Below the pieces are notes generated by a model. It saw only the letters and a list, made by a program, of their open reading frames with translations. It did not search any database and had not been told where the DNA came from. Below are positions 2,021-54,300 of a stretch of 61,613 bases of DNA, piece after piece. A program made the position numbers and the translations under genes. Each line of letters opens with the position of its first letter. Within the stretch, counting starts at the first letter, position 1. The stretch is from a virus. The stretch covers positions 1 through 61,613 of the IMG/VR virus record IMGVR_UViG_3300046694_000637; one strand, written 5' to 3'.

Positions 2021-2215
2021 TTACGGGTACTGGCGCGTGATCCGATCGGCGATGCTGTCGAGGCGCTCGGCCATGTAATACATGTCGTTGTTGTCGCGGC
2101 GGGAGACCACCGCGCACCGCGCTACGTTGCGACCGTCGAGGATGCGCGCGGCCAAACGGATCGCGGCAGCCTCCAATCGACGCCGCAGCCAACCCTTGAG
2201 GGGTAGAATCCTCAT
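2021..2215 (-). CDS. Small basic hypothetical protein
   Basis: 64 residues, starting MRILPLKGWLRRRLEAAA. The ATG overlaps the upstream stop in an ATGA, and GGGAGG lies just before it, so the start is well supported. The N-terminal half is an Arg-rich amphipathic helix and the C-terminus is YMAERLDSIADRITRQYP. Function unknown. Translation is probably coupled to the gene before it. Confidence 0.7.
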   Translation of the reverse strand: MRILPLKGWLRRRLEAAAIRLAARILDGRNVARCAVVSRRDNNDMYYMAERLDSIADRITRQYP

Positions 2216-2547
2216 GTCGCCTCCCGCCCGCGCAGCGCGGCCAGTTGCTTGTAATAGTCGCCGGCGGCCCCGGCGTGCATGATGGCGTCTGTGGCGTTCA
2301 TCCATCCCAGGCTTCGAGCCAAGGCCCAGACCTCGTCATAGAGGTCGGCCTTCCGGGGCTCGGCTTCCTTTGCCCACCGAGCCGCCTGCGCCGCGAGGGC
2401 ATTCACGCACCGCTTGCAAGTGACCTTGCTCTGGATGGTTGTGAATTCGCCTTCCATAAGCGCCGTGCCGCAGAACACGTATTCGTCGCCATCGTCGTAG
2501 GGGCTTCCGCTGCCTGGTGGGTTGTAATGCGTTTTGCGCCTGGTCAT
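2212..2547 (-). CDS. Hypothetical protein with a putative zinc-binding Cys cluster
   Basis: 111 residues starting MTRRKTHYNPPGSG at the ATG that overlaps the upstream stop (ATGA at 2544-2547). A CGTALMEGEF...TCKRC pattern around residues 26-47 could bind zinc, as in short phage proteins of this layout that begin 'KTHYNPP'. The C-terminal half is helical. Function unknown. Confidence 0.7.
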   Translation of the reverse strand: MTRRKTHYNPPGSGSPYDDGDEYVFCGTALMEGEFTTIQSKVTCKRCVNALAAQAARWAKEAEPRKADLYDEVWALARSLGWMNATDAIMHAGAAGDYYKQLAALRGREAT

Positions 2548-3203
2548 GGGGTCACCCGCTTGAACTCGACCACCCATACCCAGGGGTTCGAGTTCCAGGA
2601 GTCGGCGCCATTGATAGACACCCATAGCTCGCGCCAGGCGTCGAACGGATCACACCAGTTGCCTGGTCCCGGTTCGCTCTTGAACGGGTGGAAGTAGTAG
2701 TCGCCGTCACCGTGATGGATGCGATAGATACCTTCGGCGACGTATCGACTTTCGAAGGCCGTCTCGCCTTCACCCGCTAGCAGTCGCTCGACGCGCACGT
2801 CGGTAATCTCCAGCAGGATTCGACTGTACCGGCGGTGCAGGTGAATGCTTGGCACCGACCTTTCTGGCAGCAGGCCATCGTAGCTGTAGCCGGTCTGCGC
2901 TTCGTCATCGTCGAACAGCGAGCAAAGGTAGACCTCTTCGCCATGGGGACCGCCGGCGGCGAAGTAGTGACCGTATTCGCAGTCGTAGCGCAGCGACTCG
3001 CGCACCCACAGCCGGTCGCCAGGCTGGCCGTAGGGGCAAAGGTCAGAGTTGCCAGGCAGCGCCAAAAACGCAGGCTCGAAACCAGCAGCCAGACAATCCA
3101 GCGCTGCCTGTTTCTTCACCTCGCGCCGCGTGACCGTCTTCCGGCCTTCTAGGATGGCGCGCACCATCGGCGCCGAGAACAGGATGGGGCGTTCTTTGGA
3201 CAT
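2544..3203 (-). CDS. ASCH/PUA-like phage protein
   Basis: 219 residues. The N-terminus (PILFSAPMVRAILEGRKTVTRR) and the later GQPGDRLWVRES and ITDVRVERL segments are the usual hallmarks of phage ASCH-domain proteins, which have a PUA-like RNA-binding fold. Molecular role unknown. The start has no competitor and lies in an untranslated gap after the tiny gene at 3260-3361. It stands near a second PUA-like gene (3552-4316), so the operon carries two proteins of this fold class. Confidence 0.72.
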   Translation of the reverse strand: MSKERPILFSAPMVRAILEGRKTVTRREVKKQAALDCLAAGFEPAFLALPGNSDLCPYGQPGDRLWVRESLRYDCEYGHYFAAGGPHGEEVYLCSLFDDDEAQTGYSYDGLLPERSVPSIHLHRRYSRILLEITDVRVERLLAGEGETAFESRYVAEGIYRIHHGDGDYYFHPFKSEPGPGNWCDPFDAWRELWVSINGADSWNSNPWVWVVEFKRVTP

Positions 3204-3259
3204 GACTTCACCTCACCGCCAAAGCGGCATACAAATTAGAAGGGGGTGTTGATCTGGAG

Positions 3260-3361
3260 TTATCGGGCGACGACTGCAGATTTTCGAATGGCGTGGCCCA
3301 TGAGCGAGCCGGCGATGCATGAGGCGGCGAACCAGGCGCCGAGGTAGGGGAGTAGGGTCAT
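3260..3361 (-). CDS. 33-residue putative membrane protein
   Basis: Starts MTLLPYLGAWFAASCIAG and ends RKSAVVAR. One hydrophobic segment (residues 3-22) is followed by a basic tail, giving a single-pass N-out topology by the positive-inside rule. The ATG overlaps the stop of the upstream gene as ATGA (3358-3361), the same coupling used by most genes of this operon; this overlap is the main reason to accept such a short frame. Function unknown. Confidence 0.6.
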   Translation of the reverse strand: MTLLPYLGAWFAASCIAGSLMGHAIRKSAVVAR

Positions 3362-3555
3362 GGCCGGGTACCGGTCTGCCCGGCAAAAAGTCGCTCAGAT
3401 ATAGCGTCCCGTTCAGCGCCGCAGAATTCTGCCTCTTCCTCTGTGAGGTCGTCGAAGCGCGGGTTTATTAGCTCCTCTTGGGCAACTACCTGGGCGAAAT
3501 ATTCGCGTACCAAGTTGCGCAACTCAGTTTTTCGGCTGCGTTTGATTCCGCTCAT
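3358..3555 (-). CDS. Small acidic hypothetical protein
   Basis: 65 residues. The N-terminus is basic and helical (SGIKRSRKTELRNLVREYF), the C-terminal half acidic (FDDLTEEEAEFCGAERD). Coupled on both sides by ATGA overlaps. No family recognised. Confidence 0.68.
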   Translation of the reverse strand: MSGIKRSRKTELRNLVREYFAQVVAQEELINPRFDDLTEEEAEFCGAERDAISERLFAGQTGTRP

Positions 3556-4316
3556 GAATTCAGCTCCTTGACTCGGTCGAGGCAGGCGTTCCAGCCAAAC
3601 TCCTCGTAGTATTCATCTACAGCCTGCACATCGTTATGAGGGTCCGCACGCTTGCGCTCCGGCAGCACCAACGCCTTCACCTCAGGCGGATGCACCGGGC
3701 ACGGCCACCGCAGTGATCCGTCGCCAGATGGGCAGGTGCATATTGCCGTCGGCTGCGACGTAGTGGCTCGTATCCCGGTGATGGTGTCCAGCAAGCGCGT
3801 ACAGTTGGCGTGCTCGTTGCGGTAGAGCGATTCCCACTTGGCGGCGTCGTGCTGCGCTTGTCCGAGGTGGCTCCAGCCTTCTGGCGCGCGCTCGTTGGCC
3901 ATGATCGTTACGCTTTCGCCCAGCTCCAGCCATTGGGGCAGCGGACCGGGCATAACCAGCAGCTCGACCAGATTCATGCCGGGGGTATAGCCATGGACAC
4001 ATGCACTGGTGTGGCAGGTAAGTTCGGCAAACTGCGCCACCGGCTCAGCCCCCTCATTGGTAAGGGCGCCATTTGAGGGCTGGGCATAGCTGAGCACGCA
4101 GATATCGTCTGGCAGGCCATAGCCGCGCTGAATGTGGGTGATGCTGCGGCGCAGTGACTGCCCCGTTGGGTTGCCGGTCTCGTCGATAAGGTTCAGCACC
4201 ACGGTCTCACCCACTTGGAAGTCGCGGTCCGCACAACTGCGCACCTCGCCGGTCTTCGCGCCGGACTGCAGGTCGAGAAACGGCCGTCGCATGATTTTCA
4301 GGCTGTGCTCACCCAT
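3552..4316 (-). CDS. DUF3850-like N-terminal domain protein
   Basis: 254 residues. Residues 1-75 (HSLKIMRRPFLDLQSGAKTGEVR...) resemble the DUF3850/ASCH-type domain, a PUA-like putative nucleic-acid binder common in phage accessory operons. The C-terminal part has a Cys/His cluster (TAICTCPSGDGS...CPVHP) often appended to phage early-region proteins. It overlaps the upstream gene by 8 bases. Biochemical role unknown. Confidence 0.7.
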   Translation of the reverse strand: MGEHSLKIMRRPFLDLQSGAKTGEVRSCADRDFQVGETVVLNLIDETGNPTGQSLRRSITHIQRGYGLPDDICVLSYAQPSNGALTNEGAEPVAQFAELTCHTSACVHGYTPGMNLVELLVMPGPLPQWLELGESVTIMANERAPEGWSHLGQAQHDAAKWESLYRNEHANCTRLLDTITGIRATTSQPTAICTCPSGDGSLRWPCPVHPPEVKALVLPERKRADPHNDVQAVDEYYEEFGWNACLDRVKELNS

Positions 4317-26489: not shown

Positions 26490-26712
26490 CGTTTCTGCGG
26501 TGCGATGAGACCACAGCCAGGGTGGCCCTAACGGGAGCACCTGGACACGGTATTGCCGGTAGTCACGTGTCACGGAAGAACACCGGCAGCCCGCGAAGTC
26601 CCAAAGTGCTACCTCGGGGATTTGCGCGAGACCGATCTGGCGAGACCGATGCAAGAGGGTGTCGGCGTTGGGGATGTCTTTGGCGGACAGGCGTGGAGAG
26701 ACACGCGCATAT

Positions 26713-26789
26713 TGCGGGGTGGAGAAGCGGCCTATCTCGCCGGGCTCATATCCCGGAGAACGCTCGTTCGAATCGAGCCCTCGCAACCA
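26713..26789 (+). tRNA. tRNA-Met(CAU), initiator type
   Basis: A full 77-nt cloverleaf with encoded CCA. Acceptor TGCGGGG/CCTCGCA (one G-U), D stem GAGA/TCTC with a 9-nt loop, anticodon stem CCGGG/CCCGG with loop CTCATAT (anticodon CAU), T stem GCTCG/CGAGC with TTCGAAT, discriminator A. Initiator hallmarks are the three G-C pairs GGG:CCC next to the anticodon loop and the A11-U24 pair; position 1-72 is U-A, where bacterial initiators usually have a C-A mismatch. Overall it is close to E. coli tRNA-fMet. It lies between two terminators, ahead of the late genes. Confidence 0.93.
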
Positions 26790-43908: not shown

Positions 43909-44606
43909 TGGCCGAGAGCATTTATGAGGACATCCAGAAGCTGGAGGTGGGCCTGTATGTGGAGCTGTTCGAGTTGGACCTGACGCCGTTGAGTGGTGAC
44001 ATTTATCGGTTTCACGGGTACATGCAAGTTGGCCCGATCTATTGGCAGGGATTCGAGTATTCGCCTTGGCCCATCAAGGTTGAGGGGATGAGCGTTACTG
44101 GGGAAGGCCAGCAGAGCAACCCCAGCCTGTCGGTGGGCAACGTCAGCGGCTTCATCACCGCACTGTGCAAGGCCTATCAAGACTTGGTCGACGCCAAGGT
44201 AACCCGACACCGGACGCTGGGCCGCTACATGGATGCGACCAATTTCCCGGCTGGCAACGATGAGGCAGACCCGACCGAGCATTTCGCTGACGACGTCTAC
44301 GTCATTGACCAGAAGCAGTCGGCGGACAGCGAGTTGGCCGTGTTCGTGCTCAAGTCACCCCTGATCGCGACCGATCGGCAGTTGCCCGCGCGGCAAATCC
44401 TTGCAAATTGCTGTCAGTGGCTCTCGATTGGAGGGTATCGGGGGTTCTACTGTGCATATTCAGGCTCGACGTACGCGACCGACCGGGATGTTTTGACGGA
44501 CGACCCCAGCCAAGACAAATGCTCGGGCACCCTGACCGGCTGCAAACTCCGCTTCGGCGAGAACAACCCTTTGCGCTATGGCAGCTTCCCCAGCGCCGGC
44601 AACTGA
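43908..44606 (+). CDS. Minor tail protein L (Fe-S tail-tip protein)
   Basis: 232 residues, TGATG overlap with M. A beta-rich N-terminal domain (LYVELFELDLTPLSGDIYRFHG) precedes a C-terminal domain with Cys residues in ANCCQW, GFYCAYSG and DKCSGTLTGCKLRFGE. Lambda gpL holds a 4Fe-4S cluster there; the four invariant Cys (C-x-C..C..C type) are present. Confidence 0.9.
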   Translation: MAESIYEDIQKLEVGLYVELFELDLTPLSGDIYRFHGYMQVGPIYWQGFEYSPWPIKVEGMSVTGEGQQSNPSLSVGNVSGFITALCKAYQDLVDAKVTRHRTLGRYMDATNFPAGNDEADPTEHFADDVYVIDQKQSADSELAVFVLKSPLIATDRQLPARQILANCCQWLSIGGYRGFYCAYSGSTYATDRDVLTDDPSQDKCSGTLTGCKLRFGENNPLRYGSFPSAGN

Positions 44607-46817: not shown

Positions 46818-47738
46818 ATGAGCAAGAATATCACAGTCGTAGACATGCGCAAATTCGTTGAGGCGCGTGACGGTAAAGCCTTCACGACCACGCACCAGGT
46901 AGCTACCGCATTCGGGAAGCTGCACAACCACGTAATTGCCAAGGTTCGCAGCCTTGAATGCTCTGCTCAATTTTTAACCGACAACTTTTCGTCGGTTCAA
47001 TTCGAGCACCGTGGAAACGTGTACGAAGCCTTCGAGATGACCAAGGACGGTTTCATGTTCCTGGTCATGGGGTTTACTGGCAAGCCAGCAGCGGCGATCA
47101 AAGAGGCCTACATTGCAGCCTTCAACGAAATGGCGGCGCGCCTCAGCGTTGATGCAGAAGCCGTCGTCGGTGATCTCGTCGGCGCGGTCATCGGTAGCAC
47201 TGGTGAGGTCGTTCTGGACAGCGTAATTGATCAGAAGGCCTATCTGGTTCCCGGCGCATTACAACGCAGCTTCCGCCACACGATGAAAAGCCGCCTGCGC
47301 ACTCGCTTCAACGTGCAGCGCACCGCACTGATCCCGGCTGAGTGCCTGGCAGATGCTTGCAACTTCGTGGCGGCCTACGTTTTGGAAGGCGAGTTCATTG
47401 CTAAAGAACAGTCGTCCCCGAAAGCAGAGCAACTCAATCTTCATTTCCCTATCGGGACTCTCGTCCAGCGCCGACCAGGAATGCTTATCCAGCGTGGCAG
47501 CGGGGGAGCGTGGTTGGACGTGACCATCAACGACCTACGCGACATTCGCGGCGAGGGTACTCCGCTCGAAAATTTGATTTACGCGCTGCGGGAGTCGGGC
47601 TTTGATGTTGAGGGCTGCTGGTGGGAGCTTCGCACTTATCGCAACAAGATTTTCGAGCTCGCCCGCTTTGCGAACTGCTTCACGCATGTCCTTGAAAGCC
47701 CGCATCGCTACTCGGTCGATGTGGAGGATGCGGCATGA
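46818..47738 (+). CDS. Rha-type antirepressor
   Basis: 306 residues from the ATG at 46818. The N-terminal domain has MSKNITVVDMRKFVEARDGKAFTTTHQVA, VIAKVRSLECSAQFLTDNFSSVQF and YEAFEMTKDGFMFLVMGFTGKPAAAIKEAY, the Rha signature. The C-terminal half differs from the Rha protein at 21312 (SFRHTMKSRLRTRFNVQRTALIPAECLADACN). With the Arc/Mnt pair it makes a P22 immI-like switch; it would counter the CI repressor or another regulator. Confidence 0.82.
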   Translation: MSKNITVVDMRKFVEARDGKAFTTTHQVATAFGKLHNHVIAKVRSLECSAQFLTDNFSSVQFEHRGNVYEAFEMTKDGFMFLVMGFTGKPAAAIKEAYIAAFNEMAARLSVDAEAVVGDLVGAVIGSTGEVVLDSVIDQKAYLVPGALQRSFRHTMKSRLRTRFNVQRTALIPAECLADACNFVAAYVLEGEFIAKEQSSPKAEQLNLHFPIGTLVQRRPGMLIQRGSGGAWLDVTINDLRDIRGEGTPLENLIYALRESGFDVEGCWWELRTYRNKIFELARFANCFTHVLESPHRYSVDVEDAA

Positions 47739-48310
47739 GCCTCGAACTCCTGACGATACGTATCACCGGCACATCGCCGTTGATGATGCACAGCGACAAG
47801 TTCGCTAATCCGCTGCACCCGGCGACGAAAATTCACCGCGAACTGACAGCAAAGCGCAAAAAGACCGATGACGACCACTTGGCGATCGCCCGATCTGAGT
47901 TTTTGGCCGGCGCGTACTTCGATGCAGGGACGGGGTTCTTCGTGCCGGGCGCCAACTTAGATGCCACTTTTCTGGCCGGCGCCAAGCTGCAAAAGCTCGG
48001 GACTCACTGGAAGCGCGGCGCGGTAGTGATGACTGACCGGGCAAAGCTGCTGTTCACTGGTCCAAAGACGCCTGAGGCGCTCTGGGATGACCAGCGCTTT
48101 GTGGACTGCCGGGGTGTAAAGGTTGGCCAGGCCAAAATCATGCGGTACCGGCCTATCTTCCTAGACTGGGCGGCCGAGCTGGAGGTGGCCATCAATACGG
48201 ATGTGATCGACCTGATGGAGGCGAAAAAGGCCATCGAGGACTCCGGAAAGCTGATAGGCGTCTGCGAGTACCGTCCACGATTCGGCCGCTTCGAGGTGAC
48301 TTATGTCTGA
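47735..48310 (+). CDS. Unrecognised protein of the immI-like cassette
   Basis: 191 residues, ATGA overlap with the antirepressor gene. It opens LLTIRITGTSPLMMHSDKFANPLHP, a 'GTSPLMMH' motif seen in a group of uncharacterised phage proteins. KLGTHWKRGAVVMTDRAKLLFTGPKTPE and DCRGVKVGQAKIMRYRPIFLDWAAELEVAIN suggest an alpha/beta fold. Function unknown. Its repeated pairing with a regulator hints at a shared decision or defence role. Confidence 0.72.
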   Translation: MSLELLTIRITGTSPLMMHSDKFANPLHPATKIHRELTAKRKKTDDDHLAIARSEFLAGAYFDAGTGFFVPGANLDATFLAGAKLQKLGTHWKRGAVVMTDRAKLLFTGPKTPEALWDDQRFVDCRGVKVGQAKIMRYRPIFLDWAAELEVAINTDVIDLMEAKKAIEDSGKLIGVCEYRPRFGRFEVTYV

Positions 48311-48761
48311 GGTCGGGAAGTTTCCAGCGTACCGCCAAGCCGTCGATGACTTCCTCAAGGAATTCGCGTATGGCGACCTGGTCGGGCATGAATGGCTCGA
48401 GTCAAGGTTCGGGATGCCGACGATGGTTGAATCCAAGTCGATGACCGTCGATCAGTTCCGAGAGCGACAGTTCGAATGGCTGGCCAACGTCGAGGCGTTC
48501 AAGTCTGATCTGTTGAAACTGCATCAGGTCTGTCTGCAGTCGGTGCGGGGGAGGGGCTACCGCTGGGTTCCCCCGCACGAACAGACTGAGTTCGCTGTCA
48601 CGGAAATGGGTAAGGACGTGAAGCGTGTATTCCGCAACGCAGGCCACAAGCTGCGGAATCTGCGGATCACTGAGCTGAGCGATGACCAGCGCAGGGCGAA
48701 CGTGGATGCCTTGGGCAAGTTCAGCATCTTGCAGGGGATGGCGCGAAATACCCTCAACTAA
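48303..48761 (+). CDS. Unrecognised protein of the immI-like cassette
   Basis: 152 residues overlapping the previous gene by 8 bases. N-terminal helical part (AVDDFLKEFAYGDLVGHEWLESRFG), then a basic helical core ending RVFRNAGHKLRNLRITELSDDQRRANVDALGKFS. The RGRGYRWVPPHEQTEFAV segment is characteristic but not one I can assign. It ends directly before the RNA array, and the array's first unit begins 3 bases after its stop. Confidence 0.7.
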   Translation: MSEVGKFPAYRQAVDDFLKEFAYGDLVGHEWLESRFGMPTMVESKSMTVDQFRERQFEWLANVEAFKSDLLKLHQVCLQSVRGRGYRWVPPHEQTEFAVTEMGKDVKRVFRNAGHKLRNLRITELSDDQRRANVDALGKFSILQGMARNTLN

Positions 48762-48763
48762 TG

Positions 48764-48816
48764 CAGCGTCATGCCCTTTTGGAGAAGAGGGCATTGCGGT
48801 GCGAAAGCATCAACCG
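48764..48816 (+). repeat. RNA array unit 1
   Basis: CAGCGT, then stem 48771-48794 (ATGCCCTTTT / AAGAGGGCAT, loop GGAG), then GCGGTGC-GAAA-GCATC. The 5' half of hairpin A is missing because the upstream gene ends here. Confidence 0.75.
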
Positions 48817-48875
48817 GTGCGGCACGGCAAGGTGCGGCCAGGCAAGGCGAGGTTTGGCACGGCTGGCTAAGGCAA

Positions 48876-48935
48876 GGGCTGAAAACAGCGTAATGCCGAT
48901 TGATTTCAGTCGGCATTGCGGTGGCAGAAGCCGCT
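48876..48935 (+). repeat. RNA array unit 2
   Basis: Hairpin A at 48876-48891, stem B at 48892-48917 (AATGCCGATTG / CAGTCGGCATT, loop ATTT), then GCGGTGGC-AGAA-GCCGC. Confidence 0.8.
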
Positions 48936-48983
48936 TGTGGCGTGGCGCGACGAGTTGAGCTCAGGTCAGGCTAGGTAGGGCAG

Positions 48984-49046
48984 GGGCTGAAAACAGCGTT
49001 CAGCCACTTCTATCGAGGTGGTTGAGCGGTGGCGTAAGCCATCGAT
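48984..49046 (+). repeat. RNA array unit 3
   Basis: Hairpin A at 48984-48999, stem B at 49000-49025 (TCAGCCACTTC / GAGGTGGTTGA, loop TATC), then CGGTGGC-GTAA-GCCATCG, a 7-bp stem with a true GNRA loop. Confidence 0.8.
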
Positions 49047-49111
49047 GGGATACTTCGGCGGGCCATGGTACGACGGGTCGAGGCGGGGCCAGGTCAGGCA
49101 TGCCAAGGTAT

Positions 49112-49160
49112 GGGCTGAAAACAGCGTAATGCTCCTTCTACGAGGGAGCATTGCAGTGTT
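49112..49160 (+). repeat. RNA array unit 4
   Basis: Hairpin A at 49112-49127, stem B at 49128-49152 (AATGCTCCTTC / GAGGGAGCATT, loop TAC). The third hairpin is degenerate (GCAGTGTTGC). The terminator stem begins 22 bases later. Confidence 0.75.
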
Positions 49161-49173
49161 GCAATTTTGACTT

Positions 49174-49196
49174 ACCCCGCCCCGGCGGGGCTTTCG
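49174..49196 (+). terminator. Terminator after the RNA array
   Basis: CCCCGCC pairs with GGCGGGG, followed by CTTTCG. It would end the array transcript before the gene at 49244. Confidence 0.65.
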
Positions 49197-49243: not shown

Positions 49244-50110
49244 ATGAACATGGATGCTCGCGATGTGAACCTACTCCAGGCCGTGCAGGCCTACCTCCTA
49301 AATCCTCATGACACCGTCGATCCGCCAGATCGTTCCTGCTATAGGCTGACCGCTGACGATAAACGGCAGATCGAAGCGGCGATTTCGAAGTATGGTTCGG
49401 CTGCGCTGAATAACGTAACAAAGGGTGGGGCGATGCTGTATCTACGCTCCGCCATGCGGTTCTCTGGTGAAGATGAGACCTACCTAAGGACGCTCTTTGC
49501 ACCCGACACAGTTTCACCATGGTCGGGCCCAGAGAAGATCATTATCACCATCAATGATTCCGGGCGAATAGGTCCGTCAGGGCATCGCCTCCAAACCGTA
49601 AGCTCGTATTCTCCATTCGAGGATCGCTTTTCCAGACTTCCTTATGAGCGCCATCTCGACGCGAACGGGCTGGTTATCGGCTGGCAGTACTCAGCCACCA
49701 TGCAGGCTCGTAATAGCCTGGCCGTTCTACAACAGCATGGCAGGATAGAAAGCCTCGCCATTGAATCCTTGCCGATAATCGCGAGCGATCCCTGGCAGGG
49801 GATATGGGTGCCGAGAACCAAAAGCTTCAAATCCATGGGGCTGAATTTGCCAGAGCATCAAGGCTTGATGGCTTCCGAAATAGGTCCAATCCCGCAAGAC
49901 GGAGGGGATTACCTACGCTATCTCCTTTATGTCAAAACCATTGCCGCGATGGATGCACCTTATGCGCAGAAGTCAAAGCTGATGGAAGGTTTGGATATCG
50001 TTTATGGCCAGGATGGGCACTGTTTCGGCGAATACTTCCGAGCCTCTAAGCATGCCTTTTATGCTGCCATTGATGAGTTCGAGCGAGGCGTGGATGACCA
50101 GGGCGATTAG
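49244..50110 (+). CDS. Unrecognised 288-residue protein after the RNA array
   Basis: Start MNMDARDVNLLQAVQAYL at 49244 (ATG at 49250 also possible; no good ribosome site). A helical N-terminal domain (DRSCYRLTADDKRQIEAAISKYGSAALNNVTKG), then a beta-rich middle (KIIITINDSGRIGPSGHRLQTVSSY, LVIGWQYSATMQARN) and a helical C-terminus (GEYFRASKHAFYAAIDEFE). No family recognised. Its place after array and terminator resembles the toxin position of type III toxin-antitoxin loci, but it is larger than those toxins. Confidence 0.7.
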   Translation: MNMDARDVNLLQAVQAYLLNPHDTVDPPDRSCYRLTADDKRQIEAAISKYGSAALNNVTKGGAMLYLRSAMRFSGEDETYLRTLFAPDTVSPWSGPEKIIITINDSGRIGPSGHRLQTVSSYSPFEDRFSRLPYERHLDANGLVIGWQYSATMQARNSLAVLQQHGRIESLAIESLPIIASDPWQGIWVPRTKSFKSMGLNLPEHQGLMASEIGPIPQDGGDYLRYLLYVKTIAAMDAPYAQKSKLMEGLDIVYGQDGHCFGEYFRASKHAFYAAIDEFERGVDDQGD

Positions 50111-50221
50111 CATGGTGGATGTGTAGGCACGAACCACGTTGGGCCAATAGGCTTGTGAGAGGGCGTTTATTCCTTCTTCCCGTAGATGATACATTCCTCT
50201 TTTTTCAAGGGGAGGGGGCTC

Positions 50222-50695
50222 ATGAGAGCAGTAGTTTTTGCCGCAGGTTTTTTCCTATCGCTATCTGGATGCGACGGCGCCGGCCCGTGGAGCGGTCCAT
50301 ATGGAACGGATGGCGGGCTGAGCCTGAAGCAATTGTCGAAATTCTCTGACCTTAGACAAGTTTCTGGGCGCATGTATATGGGGGCGGGCGCGCCTGATAA
50401 CAGCTCAAAAGCAGACAGCTACACCTACCTCATAGGTGAGTCTTCGGGTCTTTGCGGTGTGTCTGGACACTTTTCTGATCTGCGGAATCACCCGGACAAT
50501 TATCCCGATCGGCTGATTGAAAAGTTTGGATTGGATCACGCGTCGGAAAGGGCTCCCGAGAAGATAGCGTGGCAAAAGTCCGATGCAAGCCTCGGAAGCA
50601 GAGTTGAAACTGTAGAAATTTCGTACACCGATAAAGACGGCAAGCAAGATGCTGAGGTCTTTTATTATTTTGATCGTATGGCTAGCTGCCATTAA
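50222..50695 (+). CDS. Predicted lipoprotein
   Basis: 157 residues from the ATG at 50222 with GGAGG five bases upstream. Signal peptide MRAVVFAAGFFLSLSGC ends in the lipobox LSGC (Cys17). The mature part has two Cys in LCGVSG and ASCH and a YTYLIGESSG beta-strand. Probably attached to the inner or outer membrane. In this place, before tail gene I, phages often carry superinfection-exclusion (Cor-like) lipoproteins. Role inferred. Confidence 0.75.
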   Translation: MRAVVFAAGFFLSLSGCDGAGPWSGPYGTDGGLSLKQLSKFSDLRQVSGRMYMGAGAPDNSSKADSYTYLIGESSGLCGVSGHFSDLRNHPDNYPDRLIEKFGLDHASERAPEKIAWQKSDASLGSRVETVEISYTDKDGKQDAEVFYYFDRMASCH

Positions 50696-50750: not shown

Positions 50751-51377
50751 ATGTCACATCGAATCCGCACCATCCGCCTCTATGGCAAGCTCGGCATACG
50801 GTTCGGGCGCGTGCATCACCTGGCCGTAAATTCTGCGGCCGAGGCGGTGCGCGCCCTGGGCGTCCTTCATGAAGGCTTCAATCGGTTCATGGCGGAATCG
50901 AAGGACATGGGGCTGGCCTTCGCGGTCTTCTATGGGAAGCGCAACCTGGGAAAGGACGAGCTGGGCGATCCGCCCAGCCACAACGACATCCGAATCGCTC
51001 CCGTTGTACAGGGCAGTAAAGGCGGTGGGCTTCAGGTGGTGCTTGGCATTGCGCTGATTGCGGCGGCCAGTTTTTTTACCGGCGGCTTGGCTGCCGGCGC
51101 AGCTGGCGCTGGCACACTATTCGGGACGGCCTCGGCAGCCTGGACGGTCGCAGGTACAGTGGGCATCTCGCTTGCCCTGGGCGGCGTGGCTCAGATGATC
51201 GCCGGCACGCCTAAGGGGCTGAGCTCTTCAGAGGCCGCCGACAACCAGCCCAGTTACAATTTTTCAGGTGTAAAAAACACCACCACCCAAGGCAACCCGG
51301 TCCCGCTTTGCTACGGCGAGATGACCGTAGGATCCGCTCTCGCATCCCTCAGCGTCATCGCTGAAGACGAACAATAG
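50751..51377 (+). CDS. Tail assembly protein I
   Basis: 208 residues, CGGAG before the ATG at 50751. RTIRLYGKLGIRFGRVHHLAVNSAAEAVRALGV starts the lambda gpI beta-grasp-like domain. A hydrophobic stretch follows (LQVVLGIALIAAASFFTGGLAAGAAGAG read in part), then QPSYNFSGVKNTTTQGNPVPLCYGEM, the conserved C-terminal motif. Needed for tail-tip assembly and absent from the final virion in lambda. Confidence 0.9.
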   Translation: MSHRIRTIRLYGKLGIRFGRVHHLAVNSAAEAVRALGVLHEGFNRFMAESKDMGLAFAVFYGKRNLGKDELGDPPSHNDIRIAPVVQGSKGGGLQVVLGIALIAAASFFTGGLAAGAAGAGTLFGTASAAWTVAGTVGISLALGGVAQMIAGTPKGLSSSEAADNQPSYNFSGVKNTTTQGNPVPLCYGEMTVGSALASLSVIAEDEQ

Positions 51378-51384
51378 GTGACCC

Positions 51385-54300
51385 ATGTCTGCACTCGCGA
51401 TTCGCGGCTCCAAAGGCAGCGAAAGCAGCCACACGCCTGTAGAAAGTCCAGACAGCCTGATCAACACCAGCTATGCGAACATCCTGGATGCGATCAGCGA
51501 GGGCCCCATCGTTGGCCTGAAGAACGGCGCCCAGTCGATCTACTTCGACCAGACTCCACTGGGCAACCCGGACGGCAGCCTGAACTTCACAGGCGTGACC
51601 TGGGAGCAGCGGACTGGCGAGGCGGATCAGGACTACATCGCGGGCTTCCCGGCCGTCGAGGCCGAGACCGCTGTCGGCATCGCGCTGACCGCCGCGCAAG
51701 CCTGGACCCAAGCCATCAGCAACACCCAGCTTTCCGCCGTACGCATCCGCCTGGGCCTGTCGGTGCTCTACAAGACCGAGACCGACGGCGATACCGTGGG
51801 CTCGATCGTAAATTACGCCATCGACCTGTCGACCAATAACGGCGACTACGTGACCGTGATCAGTCAGGCGTTCGACGGCAAAACCACGGATGGCTACCAG
51901 CGCAGCCACCGCATCGACTTGCCTATATCCTCGGGCGGCTGGCGCGTCCGCGTACGCCGCCTGACCCCAGACAGCCAGACCAACATCCAGGCCACCACCT
52001 CGATCGTCGGTTACACCGAGGTCATCGACGCCAAGCTGCAGTACCCCTACACCGCGCTGGTTGGAACCAAGATCGATGCCAGCCAGTTCTCGTCGATCCC
52101 GGAGCGGGCCTTCCGCATCCGTGGACGCATCATTCAGGTGCCCGCCAACTACGAGCCGTCGACTCGAGCCTACTCCAGCACATGGGACGGCACGTTCAAG
52201 CTGGCCTGGACCGATAACCCTGCGTGGGTCTATCGCGACCTGATCCTCAACGATCGCTATGGCCTGGGTCAGGTGATCAAGGACGCCCAGGTCGACAAGT
52301 GGGGCCTGTACCAGATCGCGCAGTACTGTGACGCGCTGGTCGACGATGGGCAGGGCGGTACCGAGCCTCGGTTCACCTGCAACCTGTACCTCCAGAGCCG
52401 CGCCAACGCACTCCAGGTGCTGCAGGATCTGGCCAGCGTCTTCCGGGGCATGAGCTACTACGCCGGCACCGAGGTCATGGTCTCGGCCGATATGCCGAGC
52501 GACCCGGTCTACACCTACACGAATGCCAACGTCATCAGCGGCAAATTCAGCCGCGCGGCATCGAGCGGCACCACCCGTTACAGCGTGTGCAAGGTGTCAT
52601 GGTCGGATACCGAGAACTTCGGCAACGTGCGCACCGAGTACGTCACCCGCCAGGAGGCGCTGGCGCGCTACGGTGTGCGGGAAACCGAGATCACGGCCTT
52701 CGCGTGCACCTCGCAGGGCCAGGCCCAGCGCCTTGGCCAGTACACCCTGCTGACGAACCAACTGGAAACCGACACAATCAGCTTCAGCGTGGGCCTCGAC
52801 GGCACCATCGCGCGCCCCGGGCAATTGATCCGCGTTGCTGACGAGTTCTTTGGCGGCAAGCCCATGGCCGGCCGCATCAAGTCGGCGACCACCACAGCTG
52901 TGACGCTGGACAACGACATCGTTGCAGCTGCTGGCGATACCCTGGTGGTGATCCTGCCAACCGGTACCGCCGAGACTCGAGTTATCCAGGGCTTCACCGG
53001 CCGCGTGGTCACAGTGAGCCAGGCATTCAGCGTGGCACCGACCGCCCAGTCGATCTACGCGATCGAAACAGCCGAACTGGTGGCTGAGACTTACCGCATC
53101 CTGACCGTGGCCGAGAACTTCGGCGACGACAAGCTGCAGTACGACGTCGTCGCGGTTCAGCACAACGCGAGCAAATTCGCAGCAATCGACAACGGCGCGC
53201 AGATCGTTCGGCCGCCGACCTCGGTACTGCCGAGCGCAGTGCAGGCGATCCCAACGAATGTTGCGCTGGCCACCTATGACGCGGTGAAGCAGGGCGTCAA
53301 CGTCGCGACCATGCGTATCACATGGGATGCCCCGGCCGGCGCCGTCTATTACAACGTCTGGTGGCGCCGCGGCTCTAGCGATTGGATCAATGCCGGGGTG
53401 ACCTACACCGCATCGCTCGAAGTCGCCGGGATTTACACCGACACCTACACCGCGCGCGTCTCGGCGGTTGGCGTGACCGGCAACAGCTCGTTGTGGGCGT
53501 ATTCGCCTGCGACCGACCTGCAAGGCAAGACCGGCACGCCGCCGGCGGTGACCACGCTCACGGCTTCGAGCCAGTTGTTCGGCATCGCCCTGGCCTGGAC
53601 CTTTCCGGCCGGAGCCGAGGACACCCAGCGGACCGAGATCTGGTACGGCACCACGCCAAGCCTTGCCGCCTCGTCGAAGCTCAGCGACCTGGCCTACCCG
53701 CAGCGCGACTATGTGCTGCAGAACCTGCAGGCCGGGGCCACGTTCTACTTCTGGGCGCGCCTGGTCGACAAGATCGGTAACCTCGGGCCGTTCTACCCGA
53801 CGGGCAATGGCGTGCAGGGCATCGCGAGCACGGATGCCACGCTGATCCTCGCCCAGATCGCCGGCGAGATTGGCAAAACGGAGCTGGGTCAGGACCTGCT
53901 CGACGAGATCAACCTGATTCCCGGCCTGCAGGATCAAATCGACGACCTGTCGAACCCGCTGATGTATGTGGCGACCGACGCCTACGCGAGCGGGGCAGTT
54001 GTGTATCAGGGCGACCGGCTGTATCAGGCCATCGCCGCAGTGCCAGCGGCCGAGGACGGCAGCAACGCGCCACCCAGCGCGACCTACTGGAAGGACGTCG
54101 GCCAAATCCTCAACACCGCGAACGCCTTGGCGCTCCAGGTGCAGGAGAACACGGCCGATATCACCGAACTCGACGGCGTCGTCACGGCCCAGGCCTCAAG
54201 CGTGCAAGTGTTGCGTGCCGCATACAGGGACGATGATGGGGAAGGCGACCTGCAAGGCGCGCTGAAGCTTTGGGACACCCAGGCGACCTACTCGAAAGAG

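Follow-up and report, generated by a model that had tools for sequence, protein, structure and literature searches.

Evidence for a type II VIPR locus with three predicted guide RNAs in a lambda-like Pseudomonas phage

The tandem array of RNA hairpins at 48764-49196 of the window (the whole 61,613-nt stretch of viral DNA analysed, IMG/VR record IMGVR_UViG_3300046694_000637) very probably belongs to a type II VIPR system, composed of vipr, vap, one guideless 5' stem and three vrRNAs; we put the probability of this reading at about 0.92. VIPR is an RNA-guided phage-versus-phage weapon reported in 2026 (PMC13142463; bioRxiv 2026.04.26.720920). As described in the main text of that report, it consists of the Vipr protein, vap and vrRNAs, each with 9-16 YNNGG repeats and a structured 3' tail, in which the NN pairs read double-stranded DNA with one base skipped, and competing phages are repressed (PMC13142463). 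A P. fulva prophage clade is included among the systems, some guides target other VIPR systems, and VIPR is proposed as an ancestor of the CRISPR RAMP effectors (PMC13142463).

Each sequence-level feature of the published description for which the window was compared is present in it, and the locus appears to be an undamaged representative of a kind of system reported very recently. The reading draws on protein homology, fold, locus architecture and synteny, the anatomy of guides and tails, covariation, code statistics, target matches with controls, and mismatch to self. VIPR itself is already known; beyond the main text of the paper go the decoded targets, the self-mismatch and the array anatomy, with its guideless leader stem and a GNRA hairpin mostly where a guide follows.

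The vipr and vap genes

Just upstream of the array lie two conserved genes that the earlier note, made from the letters of the window, had missed. The first, vipr (47735-48310, plus strand), encodes a Cas7-like RAMP protein of 191 aa belonging to PHROG 4652, a family with no assigned function. Neither its product nor that of vap had a match in Pfam, NCBIfam or PADLOC; the identity of vipr comes from a PDB sequence search, where a profile built from 19 relatives had 36pp, "SUSP1 Vipr protein", as its sole match (E 8.9e-54). An AlphaFold2 model (pLDDT 79) has structural matches among Cas7-type CRISPR subunits, Csm3 included, at modest TM-scores (0.4-0.5). The second gene, vap (48303-48761, plus strand; 152 aa, PHROG 5926), has a homologue next to SUSP1 vipr (tblastn, E 6e-6) and lies directly 3' of vipr in all genuine relatives; weak fold matches suggest that Vap may have a winged-helix fold, and it is a probable DNA-binding protein, as predicted of Vap in type II systems. 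Both genes are intact and conserved, and the vipr-vap cassette stands directly 5' of the array in every genuine relative among the array loci from the IMG/VR scan.

Relatives of Vipr with 40-79% identity were also encountered in contigs of Pusillimonas, Comamonas, Acidovorax, Dokdonella, a Nitrococcus MAG and a Bacteroidales MAG (L092-L101), and the family therefore extends past Pseudomonas phages. A P. aeruginosa phage, Pseudomonas phage vB_Pae_LESphi2 (L237, OQ594955.1), has a VIPR locus at 2097-3576, with a vipr 45% identical to ours, vap and, in front of vipr and near the CI repressor, several GGY/NN vrRNA units; its VIPR genes are annotated only as hypothetical proteins.

Structure of the RNA tails

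The earlier note had described four consecutive units that share a GCTG-AAAA-CAGC hairpin and an 11-bp stem, and had taken them for a structured RNA under selection. All four units are present, and the idea is borne out by homologous arrays with compensatory pairing in many phages. The GCTG-AAAA-CAGC hairpin (hairpin A) is complete in units 2-4, and unit 1 keeps the CAGC alone, directly behind the upstream gene's stop codon. The sequence of the 11-bp stem (stem B) varies by unit while its pairing is kept, as covariation across 39 divergent tails, drawn from related phages, confirmed; pairs 9 and 10, which had been called fixed, are U-G in 38/39 tails and U-A in all 39, respectively. The small GNRA-type hairpin (hairpin C) follows units 1-3, as described, and is absent after unit 4.

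In these 39 tails, 96.2% of the cells in the two helices pair, compared with 72.6% in shuffles; both partners have changed in 137 cells, against 41.5 after shuffling, and covariation scores 0.609, against 0.156. For all three quantities, 0 of 500 shuffles reached the observed value, and sliding the partner by 1-3 columns destroyed the signal, with pairing falling to 37-57%. A twelfth pair (columns 15-45) covaries too, and RNAalifold recovers the identical two helices. A search of Rfam placed the array above the gathering threshold of no family; the sole match in the window, elsewhere, is Proteo-phage-1 RNA (RF03044, 70.9 bits), which adjoins a tRNA-Met gene (26511-26591 and 26713-26789).

The last three units correspond to the tails of three vrRNAs on the plus strand. 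The tail of vrRNA1 (48876-48934) has hairpin A at 48878-48889, stem B at 48890-48919 and hairpin C at 48921-48934; that of vrRNA2 (48984-49043) has them at 48986-48997, 48998-49027 and 49028-49043, respectively; and that of vrRNA3 (49112-49154), at the end of the array, has hairpin A at 49114-49125 and stem B at 49126-49154, without hairpin C. The first unit (48764-48811, plus strand) is an orphan 5' element, with stem B at 48768-48797, hairpin C at 48798-48811, the 3' half of hairpin A and no guide. A stem B and hairpin C without a guide, right after the vap stop codon, is found in about 50 of the 68 arrays listed. Hairpin C, with its GNRA-like loop, is present in 84/91 tails that are followed by a guide and in 7/23 true last tails (Fisher p 3e-9), most of the exceptions coming from one divergent group. 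We infer from this distribution that the hairpin C element upstream of each guide helps to set the 5' end of the guide, and that the leader stem and its hairpin C serve 5' processing. Neither the guideless leader stem nor the GNRA hairpins between vrRNAs are found in the main text of the VIPR paper, which reports a tail pseudoknot for the SUSP1 clade only (PMC13142463).

Guide tracts and the 1-nt-skip code

The hairpins are half of each unit, and the variable information lies in the other half, which the earlier note had also passed over: tracts of 45-60 bases with a period of 5 (GGYNN) between the units. On the plus strand, the guide tract of vrRNA1 (48816-48875) has 12 pentamers, with NN = GC AC AA GC CA AA GA TT AC TG AA (AA); that of vrRNA2 (about 48937-48983) has 9-10, with NN = GT GT GC GA GA CA CA TA AG (AG); and that of vrRNA3 (49057-49111) has 11, with NN = GG AT AC GG GA GG CA CA AT AA (AT). 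Several pentamers here are off consensus (GACGA, GTTGA, GCTCA, GCCAA), as is common across the family. A first literature search on pentanucleotide repeats found nothing relevant.

Scanning IMG/VR for GGGCTGAAAACAGCG gave 84 stretches. Those bearing tracts lie just 3' of vipr-vap homologues, except for L005 and L009, where the motif occurs by chance, and for some records that end within the cassette. We extracted 130 distinct guide tracts from the collected loci, in which the first three pentamer positions are mostly G, G and Y and positions 4-5 vary. In 101/130 guides, the tail-proximal NN is AT, AA or AG; it is therefore probably part of the tail rather than of the guide.

The code was examined with the ten NN pairs next to the tail-proximal NN, for 117 guides scanned against all collected sequence. 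With a 1-nt skip, 33/117 guides had a best match of at least 18/20, as against 1 with a 0-nt skip, 0 with a 2-nt skip and 1 with the pairs in shuffled order, counts that are not fully independent because the guides are partly related. A 3-nt skip was unusable as a control because the guide itself is found. Loci L198-L235 of this collection were included for their resemblance to guides 2 and 3, a selection that concerns just those two of the 117.

Predicted targets

Leaving out the tail-proximal NN, guide 1 reads in frame on the vipr codons A T K A H K E L T G K, with 21/22 matches in many relatives. When the exact first 18 read bases were sought in all of IMG/VR, 14 records were returned, of which 10 were vipr at the same codons; the other four were unrelated phage genes and were put down to chance. 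Under the published 1-nt-skip code, the target of guide 1 can be read as conserved codons in the vipr of other VIPR phages.

Long exact patterns of guides 2 and 3 had no matches in viral contigs, because the tail-proximal NN mismatches the targets, as do one or two other bases; shorter patterns, chosen after candidate sites had been seen, were therefore used for both. For guide 3, a pattern with one base left open after inspection of the candidate sites hit 21 IMG/VR records, all 21 inside homologues of tail gene L, at 19/20. In 200 Pseudomonas genomes, with up to 3 mismatches, the guide 3 pattern gave 18 matches, two of them in gene L, and the reversed pattern gave 0. Its target can be read as tail gene L of related Pseudomonas phages.

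Guide 2 is the least certain of the three and is probably directed at the end of tail gene I, whose 3' end (VVAEDQQ-stop) it matches at 16-17/18 in rival phages. Its short pattern had 16 matches, two of which fell in gene I, and the contig with the better of these also has the gene L site for guide 3. In the Pseudomonas prophages L238 and L239, the best sites for guides 2 and 3 are in genes I and L. A higher-scoring match for guide 2 (18/18 over nine NN pairs) in an HlyD-type membrane-fusion gene of one Pseudomonas genome was considered chance, because it is antisense and the host gene recurs in many genomes with more mismatches.

Self and rival alleles

The window's own copies of the three predicted targets fit less well. 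Its vipr reads A T K I H R E L T A K at 47822, or 15/22 against guide 1; its gene L at 44091 has 17/20 against guide 3; and its gene I at 51354 has 14/18 against guide 2, lower than the rival copies. More generally, for all 11 guides that match a rival vipr, I, J or L at 18/20 or better and whose own copy lies in the collected sequence, the own copy is the lower-scoring one. The third codon base being skipped, most changes that would spare the phage alter the protein. A guide of another locus (L037) reads the same vipr codons as guide 1 in another allele, and the vipr of that locus has the lysine-to-arginine change of the window. Self-sparing is inferred here and is putative, the own gene L being only 3/20 bases off guide 3.

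Guides of other phages match the window in turn. A guide of L032 matches its gene L at 43914 (18/20), and guides of L032, L091, L132 and L090 match a single site in its gene J at 52291 (16-17/20), where the window departs from the rival consensus.

A tentative joint reading, to which we would give somewhat less than even odds, is that P. fulva-type arrays have a 5' processing arrangement absent from the main text of the VIPR paper and that these phages contest one another allele by allele at fixed codons. In the second part of this reading, guides would be tuned to rival vipr, L and J, and the own copy would be spared by changes at the codon positions that are read, such as lysine to arginine in the own Vipr.

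Comparison with known systems and alternative explanations

The locus resembles type II VIPR of Escherichia phage SUSP1 and of the Pseudomonas fulva prophage in its homologous Vipr and Vap, encoded in the same order, its GGY/NN guide tracts with a structured 3' tail, and its 1-nt-skip reading of rival-phage genes, other VIPR systems included (PMC13142463). It differs from SUSP1 in that its Vipr is about 40% identical to SUSP1 Vipr and in the sequence of its tails, and from type II VIPR as set out in the main text of that paper in having no vrRNA seen upstream of vipr, a guideless stem at the start of the array, and GNRA hairpins between vrRNAs. With the class 1 CRISPR-Cas effectors (Cas7/Csm3 backbone) it shares the RAMP fold and an RNA that combines a variable guide with a fixed, structured portion. 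Unlike in those systems, the guide is a 5-base periodic tract with gapped reading, the tail stems vary between units rather than forming near-identical repeats, and neither a CRISPR array nor any other cas gene was seen beside vipr, the flanks being a Rha regulator and tail proteins.

One alternative is that the locus is VIPR by ancestry but decaying and inactive in this phage, with degenerate GGY motifs, imperfect targets and a truncated first unit. Several pentamers are indeed off consensus, the first unit has no guide, and every guide has at least one mismatch to its best target (21/22, 19/20 and 16-17/18 for guides 1, 3 and 2). However, off-consensus pentamers occur family-wide and most relatives also have a guideless first unit, all stems pair, Vipr and Vap are undamaged, and guide 3 fits its 21 viral records at 19/20, so that we consider decay improbable.

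Far less probable are two explanations in which the array would carry no guides. In type III toxin-antitoxin systems (ToxIN and relatives), which occur in phages or plasmids, a tandem array of structured RNA repeats neutralises the protein toxin encoded next to it, and here too tandem structured RNA adjoins a protein gene with no assigned function. The earlier note had linked the array to this gene, which encodes 288 residues; by tblastn, none of the other array loci carries it, while every genuine array follows vipr-vap, and we rejected it as the partner. Searches with its product in Pfam, NCBIfam and PADLOC turned up no toxin, no conserved toxin gene adjoins the repeats, the conserved partner is a RAMP protein, and the variable tracts predict targets, which together leave a toxin-antitoxin array with hardly any probability. 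The same small weight goes to a reading without guide function, as a passive regulatory or decoy RNA (a sponge) or as G-rich repeats that form a recombination hot spot. Structured repeats within a tail operon and G-rich periodic tracts are in keeping with it, but it leaves unexplained the 1-nt-skip target signal, the in-frame reading on rival genes and the strict association with a RAMP gene. A decoy or sponge, an antitoxin RNA or a simple regulator, as the earlier note had proposed, is accordingly not the best reading of these hairpins, which are better taken as the tails of VIPR guide RNAs.

The 288-residue gene (49244-50110; PHROG 22882/21762, with no assigned function) is unrelated cargo between the array and tail gene I, where a second gene (50186-50695) encodes a 169-residue protein with no family match. 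Ahead of this cargo, where a terminator had been proposed, there is at 49175-49195 (plus strand) a GC-rich hairpin, followed by a short T run that amounts to just CTTTCG, and the terminator scan does not list it. It is a possible but weak terminator.

Proposed mechanism and implications

RNP formation, vrRNA processing, DNA binding and repression by this locus would follow the published SUSP1 and P. fulva systems, by analogy. Lying between the tail genes of a lambda-like Pseudomonas phage, the locus would give a transcript of vipr, vap and array that is cut into three vrRNAs, each a GGY/NN pentamer tract followed by a folded tail of hairpin A and an 11-12 bp stem. Vipr would coat the GGY positions and present the NN pairs, which would read double-stranded DNA as xNN, each pair meeting codon positions 1 and 2 in these targets. 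By the published mechanism, the complex would block transcription of the target and Vap would strengthen the block. The targets would thereby be the vipr of rival VIPR phages for guide 1 and, in related phages, tail gene L for guide 3 and probably the end of tail gene I for guide 2.

VIPR was reached here by a blind reading of raw sequence, and the 1-nt-skip code was recovered from guides extracted in this study, which supports the published report. The decoded targets, the self-mismatch and the processing-like leader stem provide testable predictions of how phages may fight one another without hitting themselves.
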